Shown here one piece after another: positions 791-23,017 of a stretch of DNA of 25,586 nucleotides (its first letter is position 1; each line of letters opens with the position of its first letter). The DNA is from a virus: positions 1-25,586 of IMG/VR virus record IMGVR_UViG_3300044730_000975; one strand, given 5' to 3'. The notes below the pieces were generated by a model. It made no database searches. It was given only the letters and a program-made list of their open reading frames with translations, and was not told the DNA's origin. Position numbers and translations under genes: made by a program.

Positions 791-1522
791 TCACTTTACA
801 TTCGATTTGGGAGGTTGACAACTTGACAGAAGTGTAATCTCTGGTTGTGATAGAATTCCTGAGTAAATTCTCACCTCATCAACCATAACTCTTGAAGGTT
901 GTTTGTATGGGTTCTGAACCATTGGTCTGACAAAACAACTATTTCCGGCATTCCCGAGTGTAAGTTCAATGTTCTGAGTTTGAGGCCAGTTGAGTGATTT
1001 GGTCTCAACGAGAACACCATTGATATAGAGTTTGGTGATTGTCTCATTTACGGTGTAGAGAATGTGTGTCCATCCATTGCAACTCGGTGTCTGAGGGATT
1101 CTCATTCTGTTTTGAGATTGAGAACTCGTGGCGAGATACACACTACTTTGATGAATCCAAAACTGAGGATTGGAATTACATTGTCTGTTCTCAGTTAGTT
1201 CCATCACGGCTTGACCTTCATCATAACCATTCATCTTCATCCACATTGAGAAGGTGTATTGACCCCGTAGATTGAACGGAATGTTTCCTGAACGGAAATA
1301 CCCATTGGAAAATTTTAACGAGGAATTTGGGGTTCCAAATCGGTCTGATGATGGTTGTTGATTGGTGAACCCGTGAGCACCTGTTTGTGAGTGGTCAAGA
1401 ACATTCCCATCAAAGTTGAAGTGAGCGATTAGGGTTGATTCTTGAACATTCTCAGTTTGTTCTTCTTTGGAACAAGAGATGATTGTCATTGTGGTCAGTA
1501 GGACCAAGAGGAGTTTTTTCAT
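791..1522 (-). CDS. Surface lipoprotein with LamG/concanavalin-like domain
   Basis: The 243-aa product starts with a type II signal peptide: MKK, a hydrophobic run, then IISC with Cys17 as the lipidation site. The residues right after the Cys are SKEEQ. This fits the lipoprotein export signal (a Lys followed by two acidic residues, close behind the Cys) that sends lipoproteins to the cell surface in Flavobacteriia. Residues about 30-225 look like a LamG_3/concanavalin-like jelly roll: FNFDGNVLD near the start, then FSMWMK, GWTHILYTV, LYINGVLV and VDEVRIY. It has its own promoter-like TACCTTTG (1538-1545) and terminator. It would be made by the infected or lysogenic host and anchored in the outer membrane. 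Its job is unknown; receptor masking or carbohydrate binding is inference. Confidence 0.8.
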   Translation of the reverse strand: MKKLLLVLLTTMTIISCSKEEQTENVQESTLIAHFNFDGNVLDHSQTGAHGFTNQQPSSDRFGTPNSSLKFSNGYFRSGNIPFNLRGQYTFSMWMKMNGYDEGQAVMELTENRQCNSNPQFWIHQSSVYLATSSQSQNRMRIPQTPSCNGWTHILYTVNETITKLYINGVLVETKSLNWPQTQNIELTLGNAGNSCFVRPMVQNPYKQPSRVMVDEVRIYSGILSQPEITLLSSCQPPKSNVK

Positions 1523-4846: not shown

Positions 4847-5740
4847 TTAGGGTGTTGGTAATACAAGGAAATAACCTGCTGAATACGATGCACCTGGTAT
4901 TGTAATTAGTTTGGTATTCTTATTGACAGTTATCGTTGTATTCTCTGTATAAGGTAATACAGTTGTACCGGTCAAGTATCTTGTAACACCCGTATAAGTT
5001 TCAGTAGTCGCCCCACTTACAGTTCTTGTAAATCCTGACATAATTTGTCTATTGTAAACACCACTGATACCATCATCAGCCAAATAATATGCTCCAACAG
5101 GAGATGCTGAGAACTCAAGTGTAGATAAAGTTGCTCCAAGAGTTATCGATAATGTACCACCAGTGAAATCAACCTGCTTATTACTCACCACACTTCTCTT
5201 CGTAAGTTGAGAACCATTCACAAATAAGTTACCTGTAATTCCTGAAATTGTAGTTGAATCATCTGCTGCATAATAGAATGCTGTATTCTGACCAATTTTA
5301 TATGCTGGAGTCGCAGAAGGTGTAACAGATGGGGTATTAGTTGGAGTGTTGGTAGGAGTCACAGTCATTGTTGGAGTTACAGAAGGTGTCGGTGATGGAG
5401 ATGGTAAATCAGCTTCATCAACATTTATTCCGATTGTATCACCAGATTGTAATATTGGACCCTTTAACTCAATCATTCCTGAAGAATAATCATTAGCGGA
5501 AATAAGATTTCCATTTACATAAAATTCAATCTGAGCATTACCTTGTTGAAGGAATAGAAGAATTGAACCCTCTGGCGAACCTTTTCCGTTATTTATTTCT
5601 GTATTTGTTCCTGATACTGTTTGTCCACTGAATAATGGAAAACTACCAGATGTGACAGTAAAAGTTCCATAAGAAGAACTTAAACTTTCTATCAATGTAA
5701 TCACCGCATTTGCGGAGTTATTTGTTATTGAAAAACTCAT
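4847..5740 (-). CDS. Fibre-like virion protein with Pro/Thr linker (297 aa)
   Basis: ATG at 5740, last gene of the late operon. Residues 1-110 form a beta-rich N-terminal domain (MSFSITNNSANAVITLIES). Residues 113-145 are a Pro/Thr/Ser linker of TPT and TPS units. Residues 146-297 form a Gly/Thr/Ser-rich beta domain ending YFLVLPTP. This N-domain/linker/C-domain plan matches the other fibre-like proteins in the window, so it is probably a virion surface or receptor-contact protein. No enzyme motif is visible. The function is inferred from architecture and position. Confidence 0.7.
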   Translation of the reverse strand: MSFSITNNSANAVITLIESLSSSYGTFTVTSGSFPLFSGQTVSGTNTEINNGKGSPEGSILLFLQQGNAQIEFYVNGNLISANDYSSGMIELKGPILQSGDTIGINVDEADLPSPSPTPSVTPTMTVTPTNTPTNTPSVTPSATPAYKIGQNTAFYYAADDSTTISGITGNLFVNGSQLTKRSVVSNKQVDFTGGTLSITLGATLSTLEFSASPVGAYYLADDGISGVYNRQIMSGFTRTVSGATTETYTGVTRYLTGTTVLPYTENTTITVNKNTKLITIPGASYSAGYFLVLPTP

Positions 5741-8770: not shown

Positions 8771-8821
8771 ATTGATAAATATAATTTTTTAACTAAAAAT
8801 CAATCCTATTTTATAAATGCT

Positions 8822-10321
8822 CTAATATACATTTCTACCCAAAGATGTATTGAATGTATTTATTATTGAACTCAAGGTTGAAACCTGTGAACCACTCAAT
8901 CCATCTGCGAAGAATATAAATGCTAAAGTTTGTGGTGAAAATTCTTGGGTAGCACCACCTGACCCTTGTCTCGCAAATACATATATTGCATTTGGGGTTG
9001 TAGTCGCAGTATAACTATTACTTGTTGAATTTATCAAACTACCATTCCTATACAAATTATGAGTTGTAGTACTACCAGTTGTTCTTGAGATGACAAACAT
9101 TCCAGTATTTCCAGAATATGTTTGTGAGGTTATACTCGTACTACCCAATCTATAAGCATAATTTCCACCTAAAGTTGTTAAATAGGTTGAAAGTTGTATT
9201 GCAGGTAATCCACCAGTACTGAAATTACCAAATACAAATTCAGCTCCACCTGATAGTGAGGTTATCTGATAAACACCAGCACTCACACTGTTTTGAGTAA
9301 ATGCCGTTTGTATTAGATTTGTATTTCCCCAACCATTAGTTCCATTACCGGTTGCTCCTGAAACTCCAAATGACATTCCTCCAAACCAAGTAATATTATA
9401 TGTACCAGGACTAACTGCGTTGATTGCACAAGAACCCGAAGTTGAACCTATGAATGGATACATTGCCTTCATTGAAGTATAAAGACCATTAGATTTTAAT
9501 GAGGTAAAGAGTGTATTGGTTGCCGCAGATATCGTTGCATTGAGAGTTCCCCCTGTCGCAACAACAGCATTCAAAAAGGTTGTAGCATCAGAATCAAAAG
9601 GAGTAGGACTTGGAGTGATACTCGGAGTATTTGTATTTGTTGGCGTCATTGTGGTTGTCGGTGTAACAGAAGGAGTGTTAGTTGGAGTTTCTGTTGGAGT
9701 TACAGAAGGCGTATTTGTCGGAGTTTCCGATGGTGTTATGCTCGGAGTATTGGTTTGTGTTACAGAAGGCGTATTTGTCGGAGTTTCCGATGGTGTTATG
9801 CTCGGAGTATTGGTTTGTGTTACACTTGGGGTGACAGAAGGAGTTTGAGTTGTAGTAGGAGTGTTTGTAGTAGTTACAGAAGGAGTTGGACTTGGAACAA
9901 GCGGTTGAATCTCATCAGGAGCGAAGATATAATTTGAATTGAATTCATTATTTGAAATAAATGAATCGAATTGAGAATTCACTGTGATTGCTGATTGAAC
10001 GATAACTTGAGCATCACCATTCTCAACAACATTGGTCGCAAATGCAGGATTCAAGTTCCCGCTGCCGGCGGGTTGCTCCCAAATGGAATATAGATATTGT
10101 CCCTCATAGGGAAATCTAATTTGTCCTACACCATTTCCCTCAACAAAATAAAATTCATCATATCTACTTTTATGCGTTGAAATATCTGTAGGAATGAATG
10201 TTACATTTTCCTTTGAGAATATATGTGTAAAAGAAAATAGATACTCAGGATTGGTAAGTTCGGAATTCTGAGAAACAGTAACAACCAAAGTATTTGGTTG
10301 GTTTGTTTTGATTATTAGCAT
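8822..10321 (-). CDS. Lectin-like tail-fibre or head-fibre protein with Pro/Thr linker (499 aa)
   Basis: ATG at 10321. Residues 1-137 are a compact N-domain (LTNPEYLFSFTH, FYFVEGNG, YLYSIWEQ), of the kind that recurs at virion proteins of Bacteroidota phages and is likely the attachment module. Residues 142-241 are a Pro/Thr/Ser linker. Residues 243-499 (DSDATTFLNAVVATGG, LKSNGLYTSMKAMYPFIGST, YVFARQ-like, FADGLSGSQVSTLSSIINTF) resemble the concanavalin-like lectin domain on phage fibres. It probably binds host surface glycans. It is transcribed between the tail-tube and portal genes. Confidence 0.78.
   Translation of the reverse strand: MLIIKTNQPNTLVVTVSQNSELTNPEYLFSFTHIFSKENVTFIPTDISTHKSRYDEFYFVEGNGVGQIRFPYEGQYLYSIWEQPAGSGNLNPAFATNVVENGDAQVIVQSAITVNSQFDSFISNNEFNSNYIFAPDEIQPLVPSPTPSVTTTNTPTTTQTPSVTPSVTQTNTPSITPSETPTNTPSVTQTNTPSITPSETPTNTPSVTPTETPTNTPSVTPTTTMTPTNTNTPSITPSPTPFDSDATTFLNAVVATGGTLNATISAATNTLFTSLKSNGLYTSMKAMYPFIGSTSGSCAINAVSPGTYNITWFGGMSFGVSGATGNGTNGWGNTNLIQTAFTQNSVSAGVYQITSLSGGAEFVFGNFSTGGLPAIQLSTYLTTLGGNYAYRLGSTSITSQTYSGNTGMFVISRTTGSTTTHNLYRNGSLINSTSNSYTATTTPNAIYVFARQGSGGATQEFSPQTLAFIFFADGLSGSQVSTLSSIINTFNTSLGRNVY
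9699..9824. repeat. 60-bp tandem repeat in the fibre linker
   Basis: A perfect 60-bp period covers 126 bases (9699-9764 equals 9759-9824). It encodes 20 residues of the linker, such as VTQTNTPSITPSETPTNTPS, so copy-number change alters linker length without shifting frame. Confidence 0.9.
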
Positions 10322-10330
10322 AATATAAAT

Positions 10331-10362
10331 AAATCGCAGGGAGTTTTATCTCCCCACGATTT
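10331..10362 (-). other. Intercistronic hairpin after the tail-tube gene
   Basis: AAATCG (10331-10336) pairs with CGATTT (10357-10362) and GGGAG (10339-10343) with CTCCC (10350-10354), separated by a CA/CA internal loop, with a six-base TTTTAT loop. On the minus strand it lies between the tube gene and the lectin-like gene and is followed by a T/A-rich stretch rather than a pure U-tract. Partial terminator or mRNA stabiliser is possible. Confidence 0.55.
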
Positions 10363-10375
10363 TATTAGATTTTTA

Positions 10376-10912
10376 TTAGCAACCACAACTACCTGCTGTG
10401 ATACCAGATACCACTGAAGAAAGAGTTCCACTCAATTCATTCATCGGATTTGGTTCCATATATTGGAATGTAATGTTATAGCCGTTTTGGTCCCCCAGTG
10501 CCTTACCAGTGACAGATGTTCCTGCACTGATGAAGCAGCCGTAGGTTTGTCCAAGTAGGAAATAAGAACCATTATTATCTTCGATGCAAATTGCTAATCT
10601 CTGAGATTGAGCCAATACTTTGAGAACATTTCTCTTTGCTTGGTCAAGTTTTGCGAAATAAGCAACTGTTTCACCTTGATAGAATACTGTTCCATTCTCA
10701 AGTGAAGCGTTCACTGTTTCAGTATGTTGTGAGCTTGTTCTTATCAATTCGAAACAATAAAATTCACCTGTGCCAGAAATTGCGGTAATGGTGTCTCCTG
10801 TTGATTGAGTGATAGTGTTGATATTGCAGTAATCAGTAATCCACATTGTTTTGAGACCACCGATATTATCTCTACAACCCAACAAAATTCCGCTCGTTAA
10901 ATTACAACTCAT
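10376..10912 (-). CDS. Probable major tail tube protein (178 aa)
   Basis: ATG at 10912, directly downstream of the capsid gene. The N-terminus GILLGCRDNIGGLKTMWITDY, then SLENGTVFYQGE, LAICIEDNNGSYFLLG and ALGDQNGYNITFQYMEPNPM, match the layout of the tube protein in Bacteroidota siphophages: small, beta-sandwich, one gene after the capsid. It would polymerise around the tape measure. Six or more Cys residues, including the terminal CGC, are unusual. Confidence is moderate because the assignment rests on recall of the pattern and position. Confidence 0.6.
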   Translation of the reverse strand: MSCNLTSGILLGCRDNIGGLKTMWITDYCNINTITQSTGDTITAISGTGEFYCFELIRTSSQHTETVNASLENGTVFYQGETVAYFAKLDQAKRNVLKVLAQSQRLAICIEDNNGSYFLLGQTYGCFISAGTSVTGKALGDQNGYNITFQYMEPNPMNELSGTLSSVVSGITAGSCGC

Positions 10913-10952
10913 TTTATTTTGATTTGTTTGATTAGTTTATTTTTTTATTGAA

Positions 10953-10989
10953 ATGAGAGGGGAAATCAGTCCCGAATTCCCCTTCTCAT
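10953..10989 (-). other. Long intercistronic hairpin after the capsid gene
   Basis: ATGAGAGGGGAA (10953-10964) pairs with TTCCCCTTCTCAT (10977-10989) with a single bulged T, a 12-base stem with a 12-base loop. No U-tract follows on the minus strand. It lies just after the major capsid gene, where high transcript stability or partial termination would be useful. Confidence 0.65.
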
Positions 10990-10994
10990 AACAA

Positions 10995-11957
10995 TTATAG
11001 ACCATTAGTTACAAAGAACTCTTGGAATGCAACTTGTGTTCCGAGTTTCCAAGCTGCCATTACGCGGACTTCCTGGAAGTCCTGCGACCACCAACTACGG
11101 AACGAATCTTCATCCGATGCTAAGTCAGTACCAACGAGCATATACTGCATTGGTCCGATAACAATCAAATCAGAACCATTCAATCCTGGTACACCTACTA
11201 CTTTGTAGTTTGATTGAGGATGGAATACTTCATATACTTGACCGAGAGTTGGTTCTGTGAAATGGAAGTTGTTTACATTTCTCAATGCTACCATATAGCA
11301 CTTGAATGCGGATTGACTCATATACACAACGATGTCACTCCTGTCATAGACATTTCTATCCAATGCGTTGATTAAATTATCAACCTGAGCTAATGTGTTA
11401 TATGCTTTTTCAGTTGTTGTAGCACCTGTTACAGAACATAATGCTGTTTGACCTGTAAGTTTAACTACAGAACCTGAGTTGTTTAAGATTTCGATGAAAC
11501 CTGAGAATGATGATGTACCACTCGATGCGTTCCACAATAAATCTTCGTTATATCTTTTGATTTGCTTTGTTTGCAAATCGATGATTGCTTGTTCGAAGGG
11601 TGCATTTTCATTGTATGACCCTGCATTCAAATACTGACCCAACCAAAGGGTGTTTAATTGTTGTAAACACAATGATTGGTTTACTTTCAATGCTTGAACT
11701 GTAACTGGTGCTACAGTGAAAGTTACATCACCTTGAGAGTTCCATCCGCAAGTTGTTCCTGTTTGTACAGAAAGAGTTTCAGAAAGTAAGTTTACATTCT
11801 GAGTTCCTTTGATACCAGGAATAACATTCACATATTTCATTGTTACAGGAGTAAGAACCGCTTCTGAAATAATATCAGGAGACAGTTGGTCTACATAAGC
11901 ACTCAACCCGCCGAGGTCGTAATTGAAGTTCAGTTTGCTTAAATTTCCTTTTTTCAT
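10995..11957 (-). CDS. Major capsid protein, HK97 fold (320 aa)
   Basis: ATG at 11957, beginning MKKGNLSKLNFNYDLGGLSAYVDQLSPDII. Later elements fit an HK97-type capsid: a central helix region (EQAIIDLQTKQIKRYNEDLLWN), a spine-like DNLINALDRNVYDRSDIVVYMS stretch, the P-loop-like VVGVPGLNGSDLIVIGPMQYMLVGTDL and the C-terminal REVRVMAAWKLGTQVAFQEFFV. Length of about 320 is normal for this group. The order scaffold, capsid, tube is as expected for a head module, although the whole module sits downstream of the tail genes. No N-terminal delta domain is evident, which agrees with the separate scaffold protein upstream. Confidence 0.82.
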   Translation of the reverse strand: MKKGNLSKLNFNYDLGGLSAYVDQLSPDIISEAVLTPVTMKYVNVIPGIKGTQNVNLLSETLSVQTGTTCGWNSQGDVTFTVAPVTVQALKVNQSLCLQQLNTLWLGQYLNAGSYNENAPFEQAIIDLQTKQIKRYNEDLLWNASSGTSSFSGFIEILNNSGSVVKLTGQTALCSVTGATTTEKAYNTLAQVDNLINALDRNVYDRSDIVVYMSQSAFKCYMVALRNVNNFHFTEPTLGQVYEVFHPQSNYKVVGVPGLNGSDLIVIGPMQYMLVGTDLASDEDSFRSWWSQDFQEVRVMAAWKLGTQVAFQEFFVTNGL

Positions 11958-11972
11958 TTTAATTTGTTTTGT

Positions 11973-12998
11973 TTAGTTTTTAGACATATCCTCTCTCATT
12001 CTTCTGAATGCTTCTAATTTTGTCAATAGAGGATTTTCTTCTTCGTTTATTGTTTTTTGAGTATAAACTCTTGAACCCGCAGGTTCTTTAGAAAACTTAT
12101 TGAACTTTGATTCCAAAACTTCATTTTTCTTTGAAATCTCATCCAACTTGTTCTCAATTTTCTTTAATGCTTCAGAAAATAATGTAGCGATTTCCATCAT
12201 TTGATTTTCCATCTCTTCAACATTTTCTCTTTCGGTGATTTTACCATCTTTGGTGATGAATCTAATTTTGTTTTCATTACCACTTGTATCTCTCAATACA
12301 ATCTGATGTTCACCATCAGGAGCAGGTTTTTTAGAACCATCTTCTCCAATTACCATAACTTCTTCACCAACATCAAATGTCTTAGATTCAACTTTGACAC
12401 CTGTAGCAGTTTCAGCAATGGTAAATTCTTCAGATTTTTCAAATCCTTCTCCACGCTTTTTGTTGTCAGCCTTCGATTGAACGCCTTGGATTGCTCCACC
12501 CACAATTTGAAGAACTTTTCCACCTTCGGTTTCATATTCTCCATCAGAGATAGCAGATAAAGTTCCGTCATAACCGACCTTCTTTATTCTTCTACCAACG
12601 ATTTCACCTTCACCCTCCATACGGATTACAGTTCCATCAACGAGTTTCACATCACCAAATTCCAATTCTACAACTGACATATTTTCATCAACAATGGTTT
12701 CCTTCTCTTTTTCATCTTCGATTTCAGCATCTTCTGTTTTTTTCTCCATATCACCCATTTTGATTTTGGAGACAGTGCCGTTCTCGTCAACTTCAATTTC
12801 AGAACCATCATCGAGCTTGTGGACTCCTGGCGGAGCAGGAATCAGTCCTTCTTCCGTTGAAATATAAATTGGTTGTCCTACTTCCAACTCACCTTCCATT
12901 TTTACAGCCATTCCTTGTTCAGTTTTAGCTTCAAAAAAATTTTCAGTAGTTAGACCAAGCAACCTTTTAATTTTTTCAACTGCGTTTTTACTTGTCAT
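11973..12998 (-). CDS. Scaffold-like protein with three beta repeats and C-terminal coiled coil (341 aa)
   Basis: The ATG at 12998 (MTSKNAVEKIKRLL) overlaps the preceding stop by 11 bases; a TTG two codons upstream is less likely. Three copies of a beta-repeat unit lie at about residues 26-79, 116-173 and 198-256, each of the form G-x-x-x-VG-x-x-I-x..DG..P..DG.H.L.DG..I...G.I. Between repeats 1 and 2 is a highly acidic Glu/Asp/Lys spacer (about 85-110). Residues 259-300 form a coiled coil. An acidic protein with a coiled coil directly before the capsid gene is the usual scaffold arrangement, and the preceding gene carries the protease that would remove it. The repeats are not typical of classical scaffolds. 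Confidence 0.7.
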   Translation of the reverse strand: MTSKNAVEKIKRLLGLTTENFFEAKTEQGMAVKMEGELEVGQPIYISTEEGLIPAPPGVHKLDDGSEIEVDENGTVSKIKMGDMEKKTEDAEIEDEKEKETIVDENMSVVELEFGDVKLVDGTVIRMEGEGEIVGRRIKKVGYDGTLSAISDGEYETEGGKVLQIVGGAIQGVQSKADNKKRGEGFEKSEEFTIAETATGVKVESKTFDVGEEVMVIGEDGSKKPAPDGEHQIVLRDTSGNENKIRFITKDGKITERENVEEMENQMMEIATLFSEALKKIENKLDEISKKNEVLESKFNKFSKEPAGSRVYTQKTINEEENPLLTKLEAFRRMREDMSKN

Positions 12999-14544
12999 CT
13001 TCAATAGATTTTAGTATTTGCTTGATTTGGTTTATTTTTTTTGTTTCCTTTGAGAAAACAGATTTTTCTGCAAATAATCCTTCAACAGAAAATCCAGTAA
13101 GTGCTTTTTGTTTAATCATCTTCCAAATCTTGGGGTCTTCAACTTTCATCGAAACGAACCAAGTTCCGGCAGGTAACTCAAATCCAAAAGCAGCACTTTT
13201 ATCTTTAATTGGGTCTTCTGATACCCAAGATTCTGTAATATAAACTTTCTCAGAACCAAGTTTAACTCCATTATGTTCTATTGAAGTTTCATCAGTTCTT
13301 TTCTGTCTGAGAAATTTCTCAGCCATTTTCTTGATTGAGTCCTTTGAGAAATACACATAATACATATTCCCTAAGTCATCATATCTATGAATCATTTTAT
13401 TAGGCACCATTGCTGCTCCAACAAGAATTCTTTTGTCATCATCATAGAACAAAAGTTTTTTACTATCAAAATTCTTTCCACCCCAACCCATCATATCATC
13501 GATGGATAGTTCTCTATTGGATGCAGATTTTTCTATTATTGATAATTTTCTTTCAGCCCATCTAAGACCTGCTTCACCACCCCACGCATCATACATCAAT
13601 TTACCACAACCATCATCATAAGATTTTGAAGTTGTTAAATCCCCCTTGTGTCTTGATAAATAAGAATACATTCTTTTTACAGTATCTAAAGATATATTCT
13701 CACCCTTTGCAAGTTGATTAGCTCTTTGTTTACCTACTCCTGTTCCACAAGAACCCCATCCATTTTTGTTTGCATAATCTAATGCTCTTTGAGCTGCTTC
13801 AGATACACCCTTTGGATAGTCAGAAATTGTATCAATAAATTCATCTTGAGATGCAAAAGTGGAACCTACTCTTGGTGGGATTTTATCTCTCTGATTTAAT
13901 GGAACAGTATTCGGTTGAAGTGTTGGTCCGAGACCTTCTTCTCTTTCCAATCCTTTTGTTGATGATGCGGTATTTCTAATATCACCATCTTTTTTGTAAA
14001 TCAATCTCACCCATTGATGTCTGCAGTTAAATGAACCTCTCCAAGTAAAAATTTCATAGAATCCAAATTCAGGATTAGCAACATTGTCACTCAACGCATT
14101 GATATCTTCAATACGATATACTCTATTCTTCGACAACATTTCTCTACAGAATTGTCTATTCTTTTCATCTCTTGGACCGACATACTTGAATCTAACTCTG
14201 AAATTTTCTCTATCAAAATCAGATGGTTCATTAGGGGAACTGAATCTCTCTTGATTCATCTTCTGAACGACAGAAGTGGTCATTTTTTCGACTCTAACAA
14301 CACTCCATCCCTCTTCTATCAACTTTGAATAAGGCTCTCCCAATTCGTCTAATTTTGGGTTATGTGAACAGAAGTCATCTTCCACTATTTTATAGGGAGA
14401 CATTGTTTCAACTTCTTCATCAGCGTGATTAAACGCCAACCAAGTTTCATCGTGAGCAGGTCTTGATACCAATGAAATTGCTTCAATTCCACTCTCATCA
14501 TATTCATCATCGATGAATAACTCAACAATTTTAGTGTTTGCCAT
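12988..14544 (-). CDS. Head-morphogenesis/XkdF-like serine protease fusion (518 aa)
   Basis: ATG at 14544. Three parts can be seen. Residues 1-40 (GIEAISLVSRPAHDETWLAF) are the usual XkdF-family start. Residues 110-185 (RVRFKYVGPRDEKNRQFCREM and W-x-G-x-FNCRHQWVRLIYKK) resemble the minor-head-protein C-terminal region with C133, C174 and H176. Residues 243-334 (YPKGVSEAAQRALDYANKNGWGSCGTGV, then CGKLMYDAWGGEAGLRWAE) are a separate domain. Residues 365-495 are an XkdF protease domain: GAAMVPNKMIHRYD, YYVYFSK, SIEHNG (His423), ITESWVSEDP (Ser439) and GTWFVSMKV. It probably processes capsid and scaffold. Fusing head morphogenesis and maturation protease is economical. Confidence 0.82.
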   Translation of the reverse strand: MANTKIVELFIDDEYDESGIEAISLVSRPAHDETWLAFNHADEEVETMSPYKIVEDDFCSHNPKLDELGEPYSKLIEEGWSVVRVEKMTTSVVQKMNQERFSSPNEPSDFDRENFRVRFKYVGPRDEKNRQFCREMLSKNRVYRIEDINALSDNVANPEFGFYEIFTWRGSFNCRHQWVRLIYKKDGDIRNTASSTKGLEREEGLGPTLQPNTVPLNQRDKIPPRVGSTFASQDEFIDTISDYPKGVSEAAQRALDYANKNGWGSCGTGVGKQRANQLAKGENISLDTVKRMYSYLSRHKGDLTTSKSYDDGCGKLMYDAWGGEAGLRWAERKLSIIEKSASNRELSIDDMMGWGGKNFDSKKLLFYDDDKRILVGAAMVPNKMIHRYDDLGNMYYVYFSKDSIKKMAEKFLRQKRTDETSIEHNGVKLGSEKVYITESWVSEDPIKDKSAAFGFELPAGTWFVSMKVEDPKIWKMIKQKALTGFSVEGLFAEKSVFSKETKKINQIKQILKSIEDDK

Positions 14545-14582
14545 TTTAATTAAATATTAGATTTGATATTTTTTACCACTTA

Positions 14583-17198
14583 TTATATCGTAGAACGAGA
14601 TTTTATCAATCTATCCATCTGTTGTTGATTGCTCATATCCGTTGCTGATACATAAGTTTTAATTGGAGGGGTCATTCTATTCTCAGCATCTTCAGCCATA
14701 ACACTTGTTAAAGTTGTATTTCCAATTGCTTGAGTAAGTAAAGAACCCATATCAAATTGTGGTTGATTTCCCAATGAATTTAATTGAGATAGAATTGGTG
14801 CGAACATTCTCGATGCGTTTGCATTGATTACAAACTCACCATTTGACAATAGAGTTGGAATACTATCTGAGGTAGATGTTCCCGCTCCAGTAACAATACC
14901 TCCCATTGCTCTTCTCGCAACAACATTGATTACACCTGAACGACTACCCACTTCTGTAGATGTTGAATCAATCTCTCTAATTGCTCTTATTGCCCCACCA
15001 ATAACTGATAATGTTGAAGCTGCTGCGGATGCGATATTCAATCCAACCCAAGGCTGACCTGCAGTTAAAGGTGATGCGGCTACTGCCTTAGCATTAGCCA
15101 CAGCAGTTTCAGAAATAATTCTACCTATTGAAGCCGCCTTATCGATTATGACTGCAGCTTTTTGTGCTTTCTTATTTTTACCGGCTAAGTCATAAACAAA
15201 TGATGCGATGTTTTGCATTGTTCCTGCGACAGATTGAACAATCTCATTGTTATATTGAGCACGAGTTATTAAAATGTTATTATATCTTTCATTGTAATCT
15301 TTCTGTTGTTCAAGAAAGTTTTTTTGAATTTCATTTTGTTTTTTCGTACAATCCTCATCAGATTTTATTATTGCAGCATTCGCTTCTTGAACATCTTTTA
15401 CATTTTGTTGAATAAAATCTTTTTCTCTTTTGTTACCCTCTTCTGTTGAATTTATTGCAATATTCCTCTCCCTATCAGCAATACTTCTCAGTTCTTTAAT
15501 AATCTCCAATCTTTTTTTGAATGTGACAATAGAATTTTCTTGCCATTTAAATTGTTCTAATAATAATGTTCTTCTGTTATTTAAATCTTGTAAATTTCTG
15601 AGTAATTCGGCTTTTCTTAAATCTTCTAAATTTTTGAACTGTTCCTTGAATACTTCAAGATTTTTACCACCTAAATCTTTTTGAGCATTTAAGAAATCTT
15701 CATATTCTTTCATAGCGTCACTCGAAACTCCGAGTAACTCTTTCATTCTATCAACTTGATTTTTTGATAAACCTTCAACAGTTTTCTGATAACTAAAAAT
15801 TAAAGTTGATTCTCTTTGAATCAATTCTCTTCTACCAGATAATACAACCTCATATTGTGTTAAAGCCTCAAGTGAATCTTCACCATATAACCCTTTAAGA
15901 TATTCATAATAATTTTCTTTTTCTTCTTGAGCTCTTCTTAAATCTCTGAGTTCATTATCAATGAACCTTTGATTCGCTTGTCTTTTTTCCTCTAAACCTT
16001 TTTCATAAGCATCAACATCTCTCCTTATTTCTTCTTCGGCTTGTCTAAGAGCATCATCTTCTGCTGCTTTTTTAATCTCAGCAGTCATCTTTATTCCTTC
16101 TTTTTCAAGAAGGATTCTTTCCAAAATTAGTTTTCTTAGTTTCTCGACACTTGCTCTATCTCTTGTGTCTTTTGCTCTTTCAACTGCAATCTCCGCATTG
16201 AGTTGTTCCAATCTTTGTCTTCTACTTGCATCTGCTAAAGCCTTTGCATCATCCAAAGCCTTCTTCTTTGCGGCTTCTTGAGCTAATCTTTCATTGTTTC
16301 TGAGTTCAGCATTTGCAATTGCTAATTTTTGTTCATAATCTAATAAGATTTTGAACTTAGCATCTTCATCTTCTTTGAGTGCTTTGACAGCTGCCTTATT
16401 GAAAACTTCCGCGTCAATTCTTGCGTTATATGCCTGACGATAATTTTTCTCCGCTTGATTAAAAACATCTTGAAGACCTTTTATTCTCAACCTTTGTAAT
16501 TCCAAATCTGAAGCTCCAAGTGCTCTCGCATTAGCTATTTCCCTTTCATAATAATTTTCTGTGGATTGTCTTGTTCTATCTTGTTCTTCTCTGATTTTCT
16601 TTAATTGTTCTTCATACTTTGCACCGGCTTCCTCACTATTCATAAATGCGGTTACAAGATAACCTAATGCAACAACGAGTGCTCCGACTCCTGTCGCAAC
16701 GAGTGCAGTAGAGAATGCACGAACTCCGACTGATGCCGCAGTTGCTTGGATACCCACAGCTCTCAGAACTCCTGCTGTTGCTGCACTCGTGACTTGAAAT
16801 ACTTTTTGGATACCTGTAGCAGCAAAAATCTTTTTACCGATGTCTGCAATATCAGCACCCAATGCGACAAATTGTGCTCTGATATCTGCGAGTTTAAATC
16901 CTGAGAACACTTTCATCAAGGAAATCGCACCATCTATTTTACCGGCAAATAAACCAACAGGACCAGGAAGTAATGATAAAGTTGAGAACAATTCTCTTGA
17001 ACGAGCATTTACAGTTGCTGCTCTGTCCTTAGTTTCATTTAACTTACTTGATAAGATTTCAAATTCTTTACCATCAACTTTTCCAAGTTCTTTTTGTAAT
17101 ATCCTTACCTGCTGATTGAGGGATAACATCTCCCCACCAGCAATCTGAACCGAGCCGGAGTTGACATCTATTATGACTTCATATTTCTTAGCTGCCAT
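14583..17198 (-). CDS. Tape measure protein (871 aa)
   Basis: ATG at 17198 overlaps the preceding stop by 11 bases (ATGGCAGCTAA). The N-terminus (VIIDVNSGSVQIAGGEMLSLNQQVRILQ) and a Gly/Ala-rich helical zone with a hydrophobic stretch near residues 150-190 precede a very long coiled-coil region rich in Glu/Lys/Arg/Gln (about 190-640). The C-terminus has a hydrophobic Ala/Ile/Ser-rich part and then GGIVTGAGTSTSDSIPTLLSNGEFVIN (about 766-792), the typical end motif of Bacteroidota phage tape measures. It sets tail length and may enter the cell membrane. At 871 residues the tail would be of moderate length. No -1 frameshifted assembly-chaperone gene pair is visible before it. Confidence 0.88.
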   Translation of the reverse strand: MAAKKYEVIIDVNSGSVQIAGGEMLSLNQQVRILQKELGKVDGKEFEILSSKLNETKDRAATVNARSRELFSTLSLLPGPVGLFAGKIDGAISLMKVFSGFKLADIRAQFVALGADIADIGKKIFAATGIQKVFQVTSAATAGVLRAVGIQATAASVGVRAFSTALVATGVGALVVALGYLVTAFMNSEEAGAKYEEQLKKIREEQDRTRQSTENYYEREIANARALGASDLELQRLRIKGLQDVFNQAEKNYRQAYNARIDAEVFNKAAVKALKEDEDAKFKILLDYEQKLAIANAELRNNERLAQEAAKKKALDDAKALADASRRQRLEQLNAEIAVERAKDTRDRASVEKLRKLILERILLEKEGIKMTAEIKKAAEDDALRQAEEEIRRDVDAYEKGLEEKRQANQRFIDNELRDLRRAQEEKENYYEYLKGLYGEDSLEALTQYEVVLSGRRELIQRESTLIFSYQKTVEGLSKNQVDRMKELLGVSSDAMKEYEDFLNAQKDLGGKNLEVFKEQFKNLEDLRKAELLRNLQDLNNRRTLLLEQFKWQENSIVTFKKRLEIIKELRSIADRERNIAINSTEEGNKREKDFIQQNVKDVQEANAAIIKSDEDCTKKQNEIQKNFLEQQKDYNERYNNILITRAQYNNEIVQSVAGTMQNIASFVYDLAGKNKKAQKAAVIIDKAASIGRIISETAVANAKAVAASPLTAGQPWVGLNIASAAASTLSVIGGAIRAIREIDSTSTEVGSRSGVINVVARRAMGGIVTGAGTSTSDSIPTLLSNGEFVINANASRMFAPILSQLNSLGNQPQFDMGSLLTQAIGNTTLTSVMAEDAENRMTPPIKTYVSATDMSNQQQMDRLIKSRSTI

Positions 17199-17331
17199 AT
17201 AAGAACTTTTTTAAGAACTTGAAATTTTTAATATTCCCAACAACTTCAGGAAATATCAATCTGAGAATATTTAAATTCTCTTTTAGTTTACTGGCTTCTT
17301 CCAATCTTGGATTTTCGAATTTTATTTTCAT
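17188..17331 (-). CDS. Small protein before the tape measure (47 aa)
   Basis: ATG at 17331 opens 47 codons ending at a TAA (17188-17190) that overlaps the tape measure start by 11 bases. The protein begins MKIKFENPRLEEASKLK and ends FLKKFLYGS; it is basic and helical. The gap between the upstream gene and the tape measure is otherwise empty, and the overlap has the same 11-base form as three other junctions here, which supports it being real. Position suggests a small tail-assembly factor; no homologue recognised. Confidence 0.6.
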   Translation of the reverse strand: MKIKFENPRLEEASKLKENLNILRLIFPEVVGNIKNFKFLKKFLYGS

Positions 17332-17340
17332 AATTTAATT

Positions 17341-19941
17341 TTAAAAACAAGCTCCATCATCCGCAGTTATGGTCCAAGAACATCCACAATTCAGGTCAAC
17401 ATTTGTGAACAAGAAACTTCCACCACTTCCTGTTGTTTCTTGACATTGAATTATCTCATCACAATCCTGTAAAGTAATATTCTGTCCTGATATTGAACTT
17501 GTGAAGAACACCTCAACATCTACTGTTGCTCCCGTTTGTAATGTATAGAAATTACCTTGAGGGTCACCAGGTGCTATTGGGAAGTTTGTTCCTGATAAAT
17601 GAGTTACTGAAACTCCACTTACCTCGACATCAGTTATTGTTATATCCAATGAATTCAAACTACTCACACTCAAATAACAACAGAAATCAGGGGTTGGACT
17701 TGGGGTTTGAGTAGGTGTTGCAGTATTTGTAATAGTTGGCGAAGGAGTATTAGTTTGAGTTACATTAGGAGTTTGACTACTTGTAATAGAAGGTGTAACA
17801 CTCGGTGTCTGAGTTTGGGTTTGTGTATTGGTTTGTGTATTGGTTGGCGTAATGGATGGAGTGTTCGTTTGTGTGACACTTGGAGTTGGCGTCGGGGTGA
17901 TTGTACATTGTCCACCAGCAGTTATTGTGCCAAGTCCTCCTGATTGTGTTACAGTTCCATTTATCGCACATATTGTTGTTGATGCTCCAAATGATAGGGT
18001 AGTTGTTCCACTACTTCCATCACAATTAGTCCAATTAAATGTTGTTTGACCAAATCCATTATTTTGTATTGTATATTCTCTACAGAAATTTGGAGTTAAA
18101 CTCGGAGTTGCTGTATTGGTAGGAGTGGGCGTTTGAGTTACAGGTGCAGTATTAGAAGGACTCGGAGTAATTGTTGGGGTGTTGGTCAAAGTAGGAGTAG
18201 GCGTAGGCGTTGTTACATTATAAACTATATCAACACAAGGACAAGCAGCACTTATAGAATTTACTGTGAATGCTGTAATGTTATTTCCTGTATTATATGA
18301 ATGGTCGTGGTCATTGAAAACCATTATTGTTGAATATGGTTGATTGATTGCTCCACCATTTATATCATAAGTTCCTGAGAAACTATAATCACAAATCGCA
18401 TTAGCATTACCTGTGAAGTCAGGATTGTCATACAATCTGAATCTTATGTCACTACTTCCTTGTATCTCAGCTAATAAATATTGTGTTGTGAAAGTTCCAC
18501 AAGTTGGGGAAGGAGTTACTGTGGGTGTTAAAGTATTTGTTGGAGTGATTGATGGAGTGGGGGTATTACTTGAAGTAGGAGTTGGCGTAGGACAAACCAA
18601 TGGATATGTTATATATCCCCTATCATTTTGTCCTGCTCTTGGATAAATAACTCCACTGAAGGTTGTATTCAGTAATGTTCCCAAAGCAGTTGAACCACCC
18701 ACCCAAGTAACACCAGAACTTAGAATAGATTGTGATTGTTCCACTGAAATCCAACCAGAAGTTGTTGCAGTTAGTGAAGTCCATCTTTGTACAACAGTAT
18801 TATAATCACTACCATCATAATATTCAAATACAGCATAATTATTCCCATCAGGTGCAACTCCTGGTACGAATATTTTAACTCCACCCCCATCAATAGCATA
18901 ACCGTAGTTCATACTCTGACCTGATGCGGAATATTGTCTAATATAAGTTCCGTTATCAAATAAACCACTTGTAGAATTTGTTACAACAAACTCTTCAGGA
19001 CATATAGCATTTGGAGTTCTCGTAGGAGTTATACTTGGAGTGACAGTCGGCGTTTTAGTATTTGTCGGAGTTATTGTTTGAGTTGGGGTATTAGTTGGAG
19101 TTCTTGTAGGACTTGCGGTAGGAGTGCTTGTAGGACAAACCAAAGGATAGTATAAGTAAGCACTTCCTTTAAAACCTGTTGTTGGGAAACGAACTCCATC
19201 GAAAATTAAACTACCGATACCTAAATTGGTTATTCCTCCGACCCAAGTAGAACCCGAACTTAAAACAGATGGTAATTGTTCAGTTGAAATCCAAGATGAT
19301 ATTGTTGTAGAACCTGTGAGGAATCTCGCCATTACTGTATTATAATCTCCCCCATCAAAATATTCGAAGATTGCATAATTATTTCCGTCAGGTGCAGTTC
19401 CAAGAATAACTTGTTTTGTTGTCGCTGTCAGTGATATTGAACTCCATAGAGCATAACCATAGTTCATACTCTGTCCTGATGCTGAATATTGTCTAATATA
19501 AGTTCCACTATCAAAGGTAGAACCACCACTCAATACAATAAATTCTTCAGGACAAACAGGATTAGGAGTTTGTGTAGGAGTTCTCGTTGGCGTTCTCGTC
19601 AAAGTTGGAGTATTGGTTGCTGTGGTTGTAGGAGTTGCTGTATTAGAAGGAGTTTGTGTAGGAGTTAAACCAACTGTTACTGATGGGGTAGGAGTTACAG
19701 TTGGGGTTAAAGTATTTGTTGGGGTGACAGTAATAGTATTTGTCGGAGTTGAAGTAACACTCGGAGAACATACAGCAGAGAAAATAAGTGGTCCACAACA
19801 AGTATGAGGATTGGTTGTTTCAATACAAATACATTGTCCTAACACAAGATAGAATGCTCCAACAACTCCATCACAAGTTGTACCTGAGACATAAGCACTT
19901 CCACCATAAGTATTATCGTGACAAAAACTATAACAACTCAT
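17341..19941 (-). CDS. Modular Pro/Thr-linked virion surface protein with a duplicated domain (866 aa)
   Basis: ATG at 19941. Residues 1-60 are Cys-rich (MSCYSFCHDN). Five Pro/Thr/Ser linkers lie at about 61-128, 271-311, 451-480, 577-618 and 680-752. Between them are folded modules: two near-duplicate domains (130-270 and 314-451, both CPEEF...GTYIRQYSASGQSMNYGYA...APDGNNYA, ending YPLVCPT), an unrelated 481-576 module (GTFTTQYLLAEIQG), a Cys-containing 619-679 module, and a 753-866 C-terminal module with several Cys pairs. The DNA of the linkers is repetitive. Architecture and location between tail-tip and tape-measure genes suggest a fibre or adhesion protein exposed at the tail tip. No enzyme motif is visible. 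Confidence 0.75.
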   Translation of the reverse strand: MSCYSFCHDNTYGGSAYVSGTTCDGVVGAFYLVLGQCICIETTNPHTCCGPLIFSAVCSPSVTSTPTNTITVTPTNTLTPTVTPTPSVTVGLTPTQTPSNTATPTTTATNTPTLTRTPTRTPTQTPNPVCPEEFIVLSGGSTFDSGTYIRQYSASGQSMNYGYALWSSISLTATTKQVILGTAPDGNNYAIFEYFDGGDYNTVMARFLTGSTTISSWISTEQLPSVLSSGSTWVGGITNLGIGSLIFDGVRFPTTGFKGSAYLYYPLVCPTSTPTASPTRTPTNTPTQTITPTNTKTPTVTPSITPTRTPNAICPEEFVVTNSTSGLFDNGTYIRQYSASGQSMNYGYAIDGGGVKIFVPGVAPDGNNYAVFEYYDGSDYNTVVQRWTSLTATTSGWISVEQSQSILSSGVTWVGGSTALGTLLNTTFSGVIYPRAGQNDRGYITYPLVCPTPTPTSSNTPTPSITPTNTLTPTVTPSPTCGTFTTQYLLAEIQGSSDIRFRLYDNPDFTGNANAICDYSFSGTYDINGGAINQPYSTIMVFNDHDHSYNTGNNITAFTVNSISAACPCVDIVYNVTTPTPTPTLTNTPTITPSPSNTAPVTQTPTPTNTATPSLTPNFCREYTIQNNGFGQTTFNWTNCDGSSGTTTLSFGASTTICAINGTVTQSGGLGTITAGGQCTITPTPTPSVTQTNTPSITPTNTQTNTQTQTQTPSVTPSITSSQTPNVTQTNTPSPTITNTATPTQTPSPTPDFCCYLSVSSLNSLDITITDVEVSGVSVTHLSGTNFPIAPGDPQGNFYTLQTGATVDVEVFFTSSISGQNITLQDCDEIIQCQETTGSGGSFLFTNVDLNCGCSWTITADDGACF
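18589..19002 (-). repeat. Duplicated domain, copy 2 (coding repeat)
   Basis: Encodes residues 314-451 of the 866-aa protein. It is clearly related to the copy at 19132-19554, with identical blocks such as GTYIRQYSASGQSMNYGYA and APDGNNYA. Between them the sequence differs, so the duplication is not recent or is under diversification. Confidence 0.85.
19132..19554 (-). repeat. Duplicated domain, copy 1 (coding repeat)
   Basis: Encodes residues 130-270 of the 866-aa protein. Both copies are flanked on each side by Pro/Thr linker DNA, which would provide the homology for unequal crossing-over. Confidence 0.85.
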
Positions 19942-19960: not shown

Positions 19961-22900
19961 TTAACAAGACACTATAGATAATATCACCCCATTACTGTCA
20001 ACTCTACAAGCAATGAATGTTCCTGAACAGAATGGTATACCTGTGTTTATCGCAATCCAATTTCCTCCACCATTAAATGTGCTTGTGAGTGCTGAGTTAT
20101 TCCATATGGTTTGACCTACTGCGAAGAATGGTGCATCTCTGAAATAACTTCTTCCACAAGTTGCACTAAAACAAGCATCTGCTGAAGTTGCAAATACTGA
20201 CACAGTTCCACCATATTGAACAAAATTATCACGAGTGGGTGTGGGAGTGGGGGTTGGTGTTAAAGTTGGCGTAGGTCTATTTGGAGTGTTAGAAGGAGTA
20301 GGCGTTGGGGTTACCGGTATTTGTTGAACCAAATCAAATTCAGTTCTACCGGTACAACCACAATCAGGGAAAACATGCACCAATTCAGGGAAATATCCAT
20401 TGGAGAAAAAGTAATGTTTATAATCGTGAGTTGGGTCATAAACATCTTCATACACTTGATAACAATCAATGAAGTTTAAATTGTCATCATAAACTTTTAC
20501 GAAGTTTCCAATGTAAGCGTATAAATTATAGTTGTAGTCAGAACTTGAATATAATGTATCGCCAGGAGCTGTACAAGGGTCTAATCTATAATACAACTTT
20601 CTATGACCTTCATATTCTTTTGTGAGTTTTACAAGTTCAATATCACATATTGCCGGTTCAAGTGCGTTCCAATTCGTTATCTTATTTATTCTGAAATAAT
20701 TGTTATCAACCAAAATTACTTCATCATATCTTAGTTGTTTAACATCATCAGGATATAGATAAATCTTTGCAGCATATATCTTACTCTCAGGAGAAATCAA
20801 ATCATCAATATATGGTTTGTAATAGATGTCATACAAATCTTCTGCAATGAATTGAAATTCTGCTGGTGTGATTGTTGGAATATCTTCCCCTCTGAAATTA
20901 CAATAGTGAGAGAAGTTATTATAGTTGAATGGATATGTTGTAAATCTATTTATCTCAAGGAATCTATCTTCAGTATAATCAGTCCCCAAACTTGTCAAAT
21001 ACCAATATTGATATGCTGTTGTTGCGGAACCTAAAACAAATCCATAGTTATCTGTTGGTAATGTCAATCCTCTAAATACCAATCTAGGAAGAATCTTGAA
21101 TGGTAAGAATGTTTGTACTGATTGACCATTATTATCTTGAGTATTTACTTTTGAAAATGATGATAATGTCAACATCGATTCATACGCAGAATAAATTGTA
21201 ATGTCTATTGGTGATGAGAAGATATGTTCGAAGTTCGTTGTCTCATTCTTAAATGGTAGATTTAGATTTACTTTTTCAGTTCCAAATATCCTGTTGGTTG
21301 CAGTTTTGAAGTTCTGATTCGCATAATCTTGGTCTAATTGGAATAAGAAATTCAGTGTTCCATTTATGAGAGATGTGGTTGGCGTAACCCTTATTGGTTG
21401 AGAGTGGTCAATCTTTGTGGTCCAATCCAATAGTTGACCCTTTCCAATATAATTTATTATTGGTTCAACAATTAAAGTTTTTGGTTTCTCAGGTGATGGA
21501 ACTACGACCATATTAAAATACCTGTTGACCGATGTTATAAAATCAATTTGTTTGTAGTCATTCTCAGGGAATTCCAATGCATAATCTATCGTTTGTCCTG
21601 ATAACAAAAATCTCGGACTATCAACAATCTCAAATGTGAAACCTGATATTGTGCAATCTCTACCAACAAAATAAAAACTGAGTTCTGAATCTCCTGTGAC
21701 ATTGAATGTTTGTTGGAAATCTAATGATGCAGGAAATCCATTACAAGCAAAATCTGTTCTTAGTAATTCATTTTGATTTGGAGTTCCACTGAAGAAGAAT
21801 TTTGTTCCACCCTGACTTTGATAGGTGAAGTTTCCAATACCCAAGAAATTACTCGGACAACAACCTTGTATTACATAAGGTATTCCACATTGTGTATAAG
21901 GAATTGTAAATGTCCTTGTAGTACCATTATTATCAATGTAGTCAAATGCGAATGGAGCGAAACAAGATAGGTTCGTTGCTGTAAATTCACAAGTTCCTGT
22001 TGGAACAATAGTGTATCTAAATCTAAATGTGTATAATCCCTTATATTGATTTTCTATGAAGAAACTATTTGTACTTGAACTGAAGTTCAATGAATTACAT
22101 ATCTGTCCAACGGATGGATTTGTATATGCTGTTACTGCGGGGGTTGCTGCAGTTAAAGGAATTGCTGCTCCTGTATATGAGAAACAAACAGGTAATGAGT
22201 TCTTTGAATAGATTGTCTCATCACCGAATTTGAGTGGCATATAAAATTTCTGAAAGTAAGATGTATCAAAGAACTCACTTTCTATTGTATATCCCGCATC
22301 TCTACAAATTGACTCATAAAGAGTTTTAACTTGTATTGTTGGTTTGAAATAAAAATCGTTGACCGGTGTTCCTGTAAAATCGAAGTTACCTTCTGCAGGA
22401 TTATATGCTCCGTTCTTGAATGGTGTAAAATAAACTAATGGTGATGTCTGATAGTTTACAGAATTACCTGAGATATATTCATAACCAATATTATAAAGTC
22501 CCCAAAATGTTTGACCATTCTGATATGAATAATTTGTTGAACCTGATAATGGAAAAAGATTTGGGTCCAAAAGGGAATAATTGATAACCTCATTATTCCA
22601 AGGGTGTGATAAAGCACTGAGGTCAGTTTCAAATAAGAACTTATCACCAATGTTTGCTGATAAATCCCCTACTTGATTATAGAAGGTTGCCTCATAAAAT
22701 ATTTCTTCTTCATCAACAAGAACTGAATCCAATCTTATGTTTCCTCTCATTATTTCATATCCATCCCAAGTTATGATTGTCTCATACTTGTTATTTGGAT
22801 TGAATGTTGTCGGAACTTGGGGAACATTATAATAGTAGTTGAAAATCTCATTATTATTTTTCGAACCTGGTAATTTGAATGATTGAGAATATCCTGAATT

Positions 22901-23017
22901 CTTTTTTGTAATGTCTTGAATCTCCGCAAAAGAGAAGTTCATATTTATGGGTTCATTGTCATATAAATCCAAAAATCTGTTTTTACCTTCAATAATAACA
23001 ACAATTCTTAAAGACAT
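19961..23017 (-). CDS. Large tail-hub/baseplate-type protein with Pro/Thr linker and C-terminal module (1018 aa)
   Basis: ATG at 23017. The N-terminus (IVVIIEGKNRFLDLYDNEPINMNFSFAEIQDITKKNSGYSQSFKLPGSKNNNEIF) is the conserved start I associate with a large tail protein of Bacteroidota siphophages. The bulk (to about residue 900) is beta-rich, with many Tyr/Asn/Phe. Residues 901-929 are a Pro/Thr linker. Residues 930-1018 form a Cys-containing module ending GTFIACRVDSNGVILSIVSC. Its size, order and companion gene suggest it is part of the tail tip or hub. The precise role (distal tail or receptor-binding hub) is not shown by the sequence. Confidence 0.65.
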   Translation of the reverse strand: MSLRIVVIIEGKNRFLDLYDNEPINMNFSFAEIQDITKKNSGYSQSFKLPGSKNNNEIFNYYYNVPQVPTTFNPNNKYETIITWDGYEIMRGNIRLDSVLVDEEEIFYEATFYNQVGDLSANIGDKFLFETDLSALSHPWNNEVINYSLLDPNLFPLSGSTNYSYQNGQTFWGLYNIGYEYISGNSVNYQTSPLVYFTPFKNGAYNPAEGNFDFTGTPVNDFYFKPTIQVKTLYESICRDAGYTIESEFFDTSYFQKFYMPLKFGDETIYSKNSLPVCFSYTGAAIPLTAATPAVTAYTNPSVGQICNSLNFSSSTNSFFIENQYKGLYTFRFRYTIVPTGTCEFTATNLSCFAPFAFDYIDNNGTTRTFTIPYTQCGIPYVIQGCCPSNFLGIGNFTYQSQGGTKFFFSGTPNQNELLRTDFACNGFPASLDFQQTFNVTGDSELSFYFVGRDCTISGFTFEIVDSPRFLLSGQTIDYALEFPENDYKQIDFITSVNRYFNMVVVPSPEKPKTLIVEPIINYIGKGQLLDWTTKIDHSQPIRVTPTTSLINGTLNFLFQLDQDYANQNFKTATNRIFGTEKVNLNLPFKNETTNFEHIFSSPIDITIYSAYESMLTLSSFSKVNTQDNNGQSVQTFLPFKILPRLVFRGLTLPTDNYGFVLGSATTAYQYWYLTSLGTDYTEDRFLEINRFTTYPFNYNNFSHYCNFRGEDIPTITPAEFQFIAEDLYDIYYKPYIDDLISPESKIYAAKIYLYPDDVKQLRYDEVILVDNNYFRINKITNWNALEPAICDIELVKLTKEYEGHRKLYYRLDPCTAPGDTLYSSSDYNYNLYAYIGNFVKVYDDNLNFIDCYQVYEDVYDPTHDYKHYFFSNGYFPELVHVFPDCGCTGRTEFDLVQQIPVTPTPTPSNTPNRPTPTLTPTPTPTPTRDNFVQYGGTVSVFATSADACFSATCGRSYFRDAPFFAVGQTIWNNSALTSTFNGGGNWIAINTGIPFCSGTFIACRVDSNGVILSIVSC

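Follow-up and report, generated by a model that had tools for sequence, protein, structure and literature searches.

Our question was whether Pro/Thr-rich linkers, recurring in several virion proteins of one virus, mark a framework for the shuffling of protein domains. The DNA analysed, hereafter the window, is an entire virus record; it is linear, 25,586 bp long, and probably incomplete. In order of transcription, the - strand carries the edge ORF, p204, p558, p1018, p866, tape measure, protease, p343, capsid protein, p178, p499, portal, p209, p88, p311, and p297. Note that the capsid protein takes its name from position and conservation, without a family match. The original prediction placed linkers in p297, p499, p866, and p1018, all of which are present as - strand ORFs, with a possible fifth protein at the right edge. 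We applied one uniform Pro/Thr linker criterion to all window proteins. Linkers were detected in the same four proteins, at the expected positions (Table 1). By this criterion, there was none in the capsid protein, portal, tape measure, protease, or other named window genes. When residues were shuffled within each protein, the linker content of p499 (107 residues, against a shuffled mean of 21 and maximum of 86), p866 (293, against 66 and 225), and p1018 (50, against 3.3 and 35) was never reached. The p297 linker is weaker: its 37 residues compare with a shuffled mean of 5.8 and a maximum of 46, so the observed content was reached by shuffles. A 15-residue stretch of p1018 (aa 287-301) is probably due to chance. 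The domain at the right edge is homologous to domains of Pro/Thr-linker genes in relatives, where it occurs at the C-terminal and also the N-terminal position, as expected for a fifth protein. A literature search for Pro/Thr linkers in phage virions found nothing.

Table 1. Positions of linker-bearing genes, their domains, and the exchanged cassette in the window.
Feature	Position	Strand	Note
p297, Pro/Thr-linker virion gene	4847..5740	-	N-anchor aa 1-111, linker aa 112-148, C-domain aa 149-297
p297 Pro/Thr linker	5297..5407	-	Uniform linker criterion
p499, N-anchor, Pro/Thr linker, and lectin-like C-domain; between p178 and portal gene	8822..10321	-	
p499 N-anchor, aa 1-137, conserved	9911..10321	-	Also a stand-alone ~140-aa protein without linker in relatives
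p499 Pro/Thr linker	9590..9910	-	aa 138-244; uniform linker criterion
p499 linker 60-bp tandem repeat, length variation	9699..9846	-	2.1 perfect copies at 9699-9824; relatives' linkers differ by exact repeat units
p499 ConA/LamG-like C-domain, domain class D0	8825..9589	-	Predicted fold
Exchanged cassette, match to L089:870-1731	8810..9677	-	97.2% DNA identity over 868 bp
p866, N-anchor, five linkers, and five further domains (one ~130-aa domain in two copies)	17341..19941	-	
p866 N-anchor, aa 1-59	19765..19941	-	
p866 linker 1	19543..19764	-	
p866 linker 2	18997..19149	-	
p866 linker 3	18493..18612	-	
p866 linker 4	18082..18234	-	
p866 linker 5	17683..17913	-	Detected as two pieces
p866 repeated domain copy 1, aa 134-264	19150..19542	-	Homologues in other phages' p499-slot genes
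p866 repeated domain copy 2, aa 316-443	18613..18996	-	
p866 C-terminal domain, aa 754-866	17344..17682	-	
p1018, conserved tail protein (aa 1-896), short linker, and C-terminal domain	19961..23017	-	
p1018 Pro/Thr linker	20225..20329	-	aa 897-931; uniform linker criterion
p1018 C-terminal domain, aa 932-1018	19964..20224	-	
Edge ORF, C-terminal part of a probable fifth framework gene, cut by contig end	25264..25584	-	

Relatives were found by scanning with the major capsid protein of the window. This returned at least 80 loci, 76-100% identical, with strong synteny. All are metagenome contigs and the majority are fragments. In ten longer contigs (29-36 kb), which we read completely, the number of Pro/Thr-linker genes ranges from 3 to 6. 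Two scans of the cellular genomes in the collection, by capsid alignment and with the lectin-like domain described below, found no relatives. The nearest named phages, Nonlabens P12024L/S (Inhavirus), are distant (29% identity for the portal and 34% for the p1018 N-domain). From this link, our guess is a Bacteroidota host. Among named phages there was no match to the p499 lectin-like domain or to its companion small ORF. Two further observations concern gene content in the relatives. In L160/L161 (contig G001) and L166/L167 (contig G004), the 518-aa protease gene has a homologue divided between two ORFs. In addition, G004 has linker-bearing genes of one N-terminal type at both contig ends (19-2601 and 33748-36168, encoding 860 and 806 aa). 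This reflects either real duplication or overlapping contig ends from strain variants.

Logically, a shuffling framework should keep one part of each protein while changing the other. We clustered the protein segments between linkers into domain classes. The N-terminal domains stay in place: all 51 p499-type N-domains with a linker are in the p499 slot, and 9 contigs have a conserved p297 N-domain in that gene's slot. Several C-domain clusters, in contrast, occupy two or three gene slots, with the domains common to several slots mostly 60-90% identical. A further 21 relatives have no detected linker in the p499 slot; most of these proteins end at ~140 residues and are thus headless. The turnover is evident in 23 pairs with capsid proteins 93-97% identical. 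Here, N-domain identity averages 88%, while C-domains were gained or lost in 8 pairs, unrelated in 4, and at least 70% identical in only 2. For pairs in the p499 slot, the border is sharp: homology is lost at the N-domain/linker boundary, or within the linker, and mostly returns 13-50 nt ahead of the portal start.

The p499 C-domain allowed exchange to be followed across the family. The AF2 model (pLDDT 79, pTM 0.83) has a predicted ConA-like/LamG jelly-roll fold. Foldseek matched it to viral ConA/LamG-like proteins and, in the PDB, with moderate TM-scores (0.4-0.54), to a cyanophage tailspike, an arabinanase C-terminal domain, and lectin-like domains. Neither p499 nor another member of its domain class had a significant Pfam match to a curated LamG/ConA profile, and the end domains tested had no Pfam matches. 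Carbohydrate binding by this domain is thus suggested by the modelled fold. The p499 N-anchor is modelled as a beta-sandwich (pLDDT 79), with no confident PDB relative. Separately, a 243-aa protein of the window (791-1522, - strand) matches Laminin_G_3 significantly (E 4.7e-18) and has an N-terminus resembling a lipoprotein signal peptide; it may be a phage product located on the host surface.

A scan seeded with the p499 C-domain identified 93 ORFs in 71 loci. A Pro/Thr linker directly precedes the lectin-like domain in 87 of the 93, and 3 more are cut by a contig end. The domain lies behind at least 10 anchor types, a count that is no unbiased census because the scan was seeded with the domain itself. 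On the domain tree there are 31 anchor changes, where the minimum is 8 and the shuffled mean is 38.8. Therefore, exchange has been frequent and part of the inheritance is vertical.

A direct example involves the window itself. The p499 C-domain is 98.8% identical, at the protein level, to a domain encoded by locus L089 (Table 1), and 8 codons differ between the two cassettes. There is no second DNA match of note between L089 and the window, and the portals are only 29% identical. In L089, the lectin-like domain is on another anchor, and a gene of its own, 141 residues long and lacking a linker, encodes the p499-type anchor. The 5' junction of the match is inside both linkers, and the 3' junction is 12 nt past both stop codons. 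A second example comes from L029 and L033, with capsid proteins 98.7% identical. One 107-residue head, 88.8% identical (85% in DNA), is carried by the p866-slot gene of one and by the p1018-type gene of the other; the match runs from within the linkers to the stop codons. Further high-identity swaps between anchors were found for L131/L137 (92% DNA identity) and L102/L128 (89%). Note that only a few long, high-identity matches, of 198 cross-anchor matches tallied, are used as evidence of breakpoints. The weaker matches are no proof, because linkers are alike in composition and alignments extend into them regardless. We conclude that the linkers mark a domain-shuffling framework, as originally proposed: an N-domain is kept while its C-domain changes, and one C-domain is found behind many N-domains. 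The same linker with different C-domains, and breakpoints at or in linker DNA, were looked for in the relatives and found. The contrary pattern, of each C-domain tied to one N-domain with breakpoints scattered elsewhere, is not what the relatives show.

In relatives, the lectin-like domain mostly travels with a small companion. An ORF of ~70 aa lies just downstream of 56 out of 84 lectin-domain genes, compared with 1 of 100 linker genes that lack the domain by clustering. That one exception, L105, also has a lectin-like domain by profile search. In the reverse search, which began with the small ORF, the lectin-like domain was present in 50 of 51 distinct neighbours, and many belong to unrelated phages without Pro/Thr linkers. 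The ORF occurs in L025, L037, L058, L091, L113, and about 50 other loci, and often overlaps the stop codon of the lectin gene. Divergence of the ORF and the domain is correlated (Mantel rho 0.42, reached in 0 of 999 permutations). Across 11 long contigs, both are present in 6 and neither in 4; the window is the only one with the domain and no ORF. The small ORF is also absent in L089. In G004, the ORF sits in the gap between p499 and the portal gene, and the p866-slot gene carries the lectin-like domain. A non-coding element was also considered for the conserved DNA downstream of lectin-domain genes; this was rejected, as the conserved DNA is the small ORF. The ORF product has no Pfam match, no convincing PHROG match, and no homology to a known fibre chaperone family. 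By analogy with fibre-chaperone modules it is possibly a chaperone, and we regard it as a candidate new family of accessory proteins. Another small ORF, of ~90 aa, occurs downstream of domain class D1 genes only (L029, L045, G003, and G004). This suggests that different heads come with dedicated small proteins.

We consider it likely that the Pro/Thr linkers act as permissive joints, and that together they make up a combinatorial display system. A fixed N-terminal anchor is kept by each of several virion proteins, as conservation and synteny show. End domains behind the linker are gained, lost, and exchanged, both between phages and between non-homologous anchor genes. In the handful of high-identity swaps, the exchanged cassette starts inside the linker and ends at the stop codon, or up to a few hundred bases past it. 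In the relatives, most lectin-like cassettes also bring the ~70-aa ORF. From the products of exchange, we infer that short-homology recombination during co-infection joins the cassettes. Selection would then retain in-frame joints in the unstructured repeat, where the precise position of the joint is immaterial, and repeat slippage would tune linker length freely. The end domains would be surface-exposed heads for carbohydrate binding or adhesion, so that swaps may alter the surfaces or hosts bound.

Could the linkers instead be mere spacers or glycosylated stalks, providing reach or mucin-like decoration, with shuffling a by-product of general phage mosaicism? Thr/Pro-rich stalks are typical substrates for O-glycosylation, and linker length does vary freely in repeat units. 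The p499-slot genes of L058, L061, and L063 are otherwise identical, with linkers differing by exact 12-bp and 102-bp units. The pairing of lectin-like domain and small ORF in phages lacking the linker also fits. However, a stalk leaves unexplained why junctions coincide with linkers and why one head has many anchors. We think this account somewhat unlikely; it is in any case compatible with permissive joints, rather than exclusive of them.

A more specific proposal is classical homologous recombination, with repeated linker DNA providing homology arms for frequent crossovers between unlinked genes. The original prediction favoured this route, given the similarity of linker DNA between genes. 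That similarity exists, and linkers have repeated DNA units in common, but in the window it goes no further than encoded residues and codon usage predict. Thus, 9 15-mers are shared between window genes, compared with 3.9 in synonymous-codon shuffles, a level reached by 25 of the 200 shuffles. The longest exact matches are 10-18 bp. Because sharing is within the codon null, and exact matches are so short, the linker is disfavoured as a classical homology arm in the window phage. Five relatives (L028, L042, L044, L050, and L074) do exceed synonymous shuffles, in at least one of two k-mer tests, and swap junctions do fall in linkers. Conversely, the best-resolved swaps have their 3' junction at or shortly past the stop codon, where there is no linker; in one of them, the sequence shared at this point is 7 bp. 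Furthermore, a search of 15 contigs, mostly incomplete, gave no integrase, ERF, or YqaJ genes. We therefore judge the homology-arm route unlikely, and short-homology recombination with selection for tolerant joints is the most economical reading. One rearrangement concerns neighbouring genes: comparing L060:3512-5101 with L061:3602-5101, a 90-bp deletion fuses two adjacent p866-slot genes in L061. The deleted DNA comprises a short linker, a stop codon, and the next start codon, and the compared flanks are 100% identical.

Metagenome contigs are the source of all data, and short-read assemblers might have linked different genes through the repetitive linkers. This is very improbable. The window p499 arrangement recurs in L004 and L005, contigs of two other IMG data sets, and the window cassette differs from that of L089 by its 8 codons; a simple assembly chimera is unlikely for these reasons, and would need two misjoins, one outside the linker. 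More broadly, domain associations recur over dozens of data sets, and the shared domains are too divergent to be copies. Scarcely credible is very fast evolution of end domains in place, by diversifying selection and without exchange: same-class C-domains in one slot are often only 50-60% identical, against 85-90% for N-domains, but it is contradicted by non-homologous C-domains in one slot, by C-domains gained or lost, and by different anchors with nearly identical C-domains, as in the window and L089.

Returning to permissive joints, a broader version can be put forward tentatively, with chances a little short of even. This is a family-wide display system, with one linker standard and a common pool of sugar-binding-like cassettes, each with a chaperone-like ORF, mounted on head-proximal and tail proteins. 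If true, the phage population would recombine which glycan-binding heads are displayed, and where on the virion. Regardless, the analysis gives a sequence-level view of surface rebuilding in an uncultured phage family, identifying fixed parts, exchanged parts, and the positions of the joints. The linker could also be used as a marker for swappable adhesion domains in viromes.

Diversity-generating retroelements also vary surface-exposed C-terminal domains of phage proteins. Here, in contrast, whole domains are exchanged and there is no reverse transcriptase in 15 contigs, some of which are incomplete. The expectation of surface variation without a retroelement thus holds for the missing reverse transcriptase, while altered host contact is argued from the predicted ConA/LamG fold. 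Taken together, the virus can probably alter its host-facing surface without such an element. Nonlabens P12024L differs in having no Pro/Thr linkers by the same criterion. Domain mosaicism, combining conserved parts with exchangeable domains, is described for phage receptor-binding and other tail proteins, with the strongest signal of recent exchange in proteins that contact the host (Smug et al. 2023, PMC10684548). Our phages share this logic but use one type of low-complexity linker on at least 10 anchors, in one phage family, including a portal-adjacent gene; a word search of that text found no mention of linkers. For tailspikes, where anchors and receptor-binding domains are exchanged, conserved DNA motifs flank the receptor-binding domain (PMC10408124). 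A fixed N-terminal anchor, a swapped C-terminal domain, and recombination at defined borders are common to both systems. Here, however, a degenerate Pro/Thr repeat forms the 5' border, and exchange spans non-homologous anchor genes. Distant Alteromonas phages have modules of tail fibre and cognate chaperone in common (PMC10579305). There too, a host-recognition module and a small accessory gene travel together between distant phages. The difference is that only the end domain and ~70-aa ORF move in our case, a chaperone role being suggested by analogy, and that the window has no such ORF. Hence, anchor-plus-exchangeable-head proteins, and the exchange of modules, are already well known in phages. 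What is new is a single linker type on many anchors of one family, movement of heads between non-homologous anchor genes, and the companion ORF.
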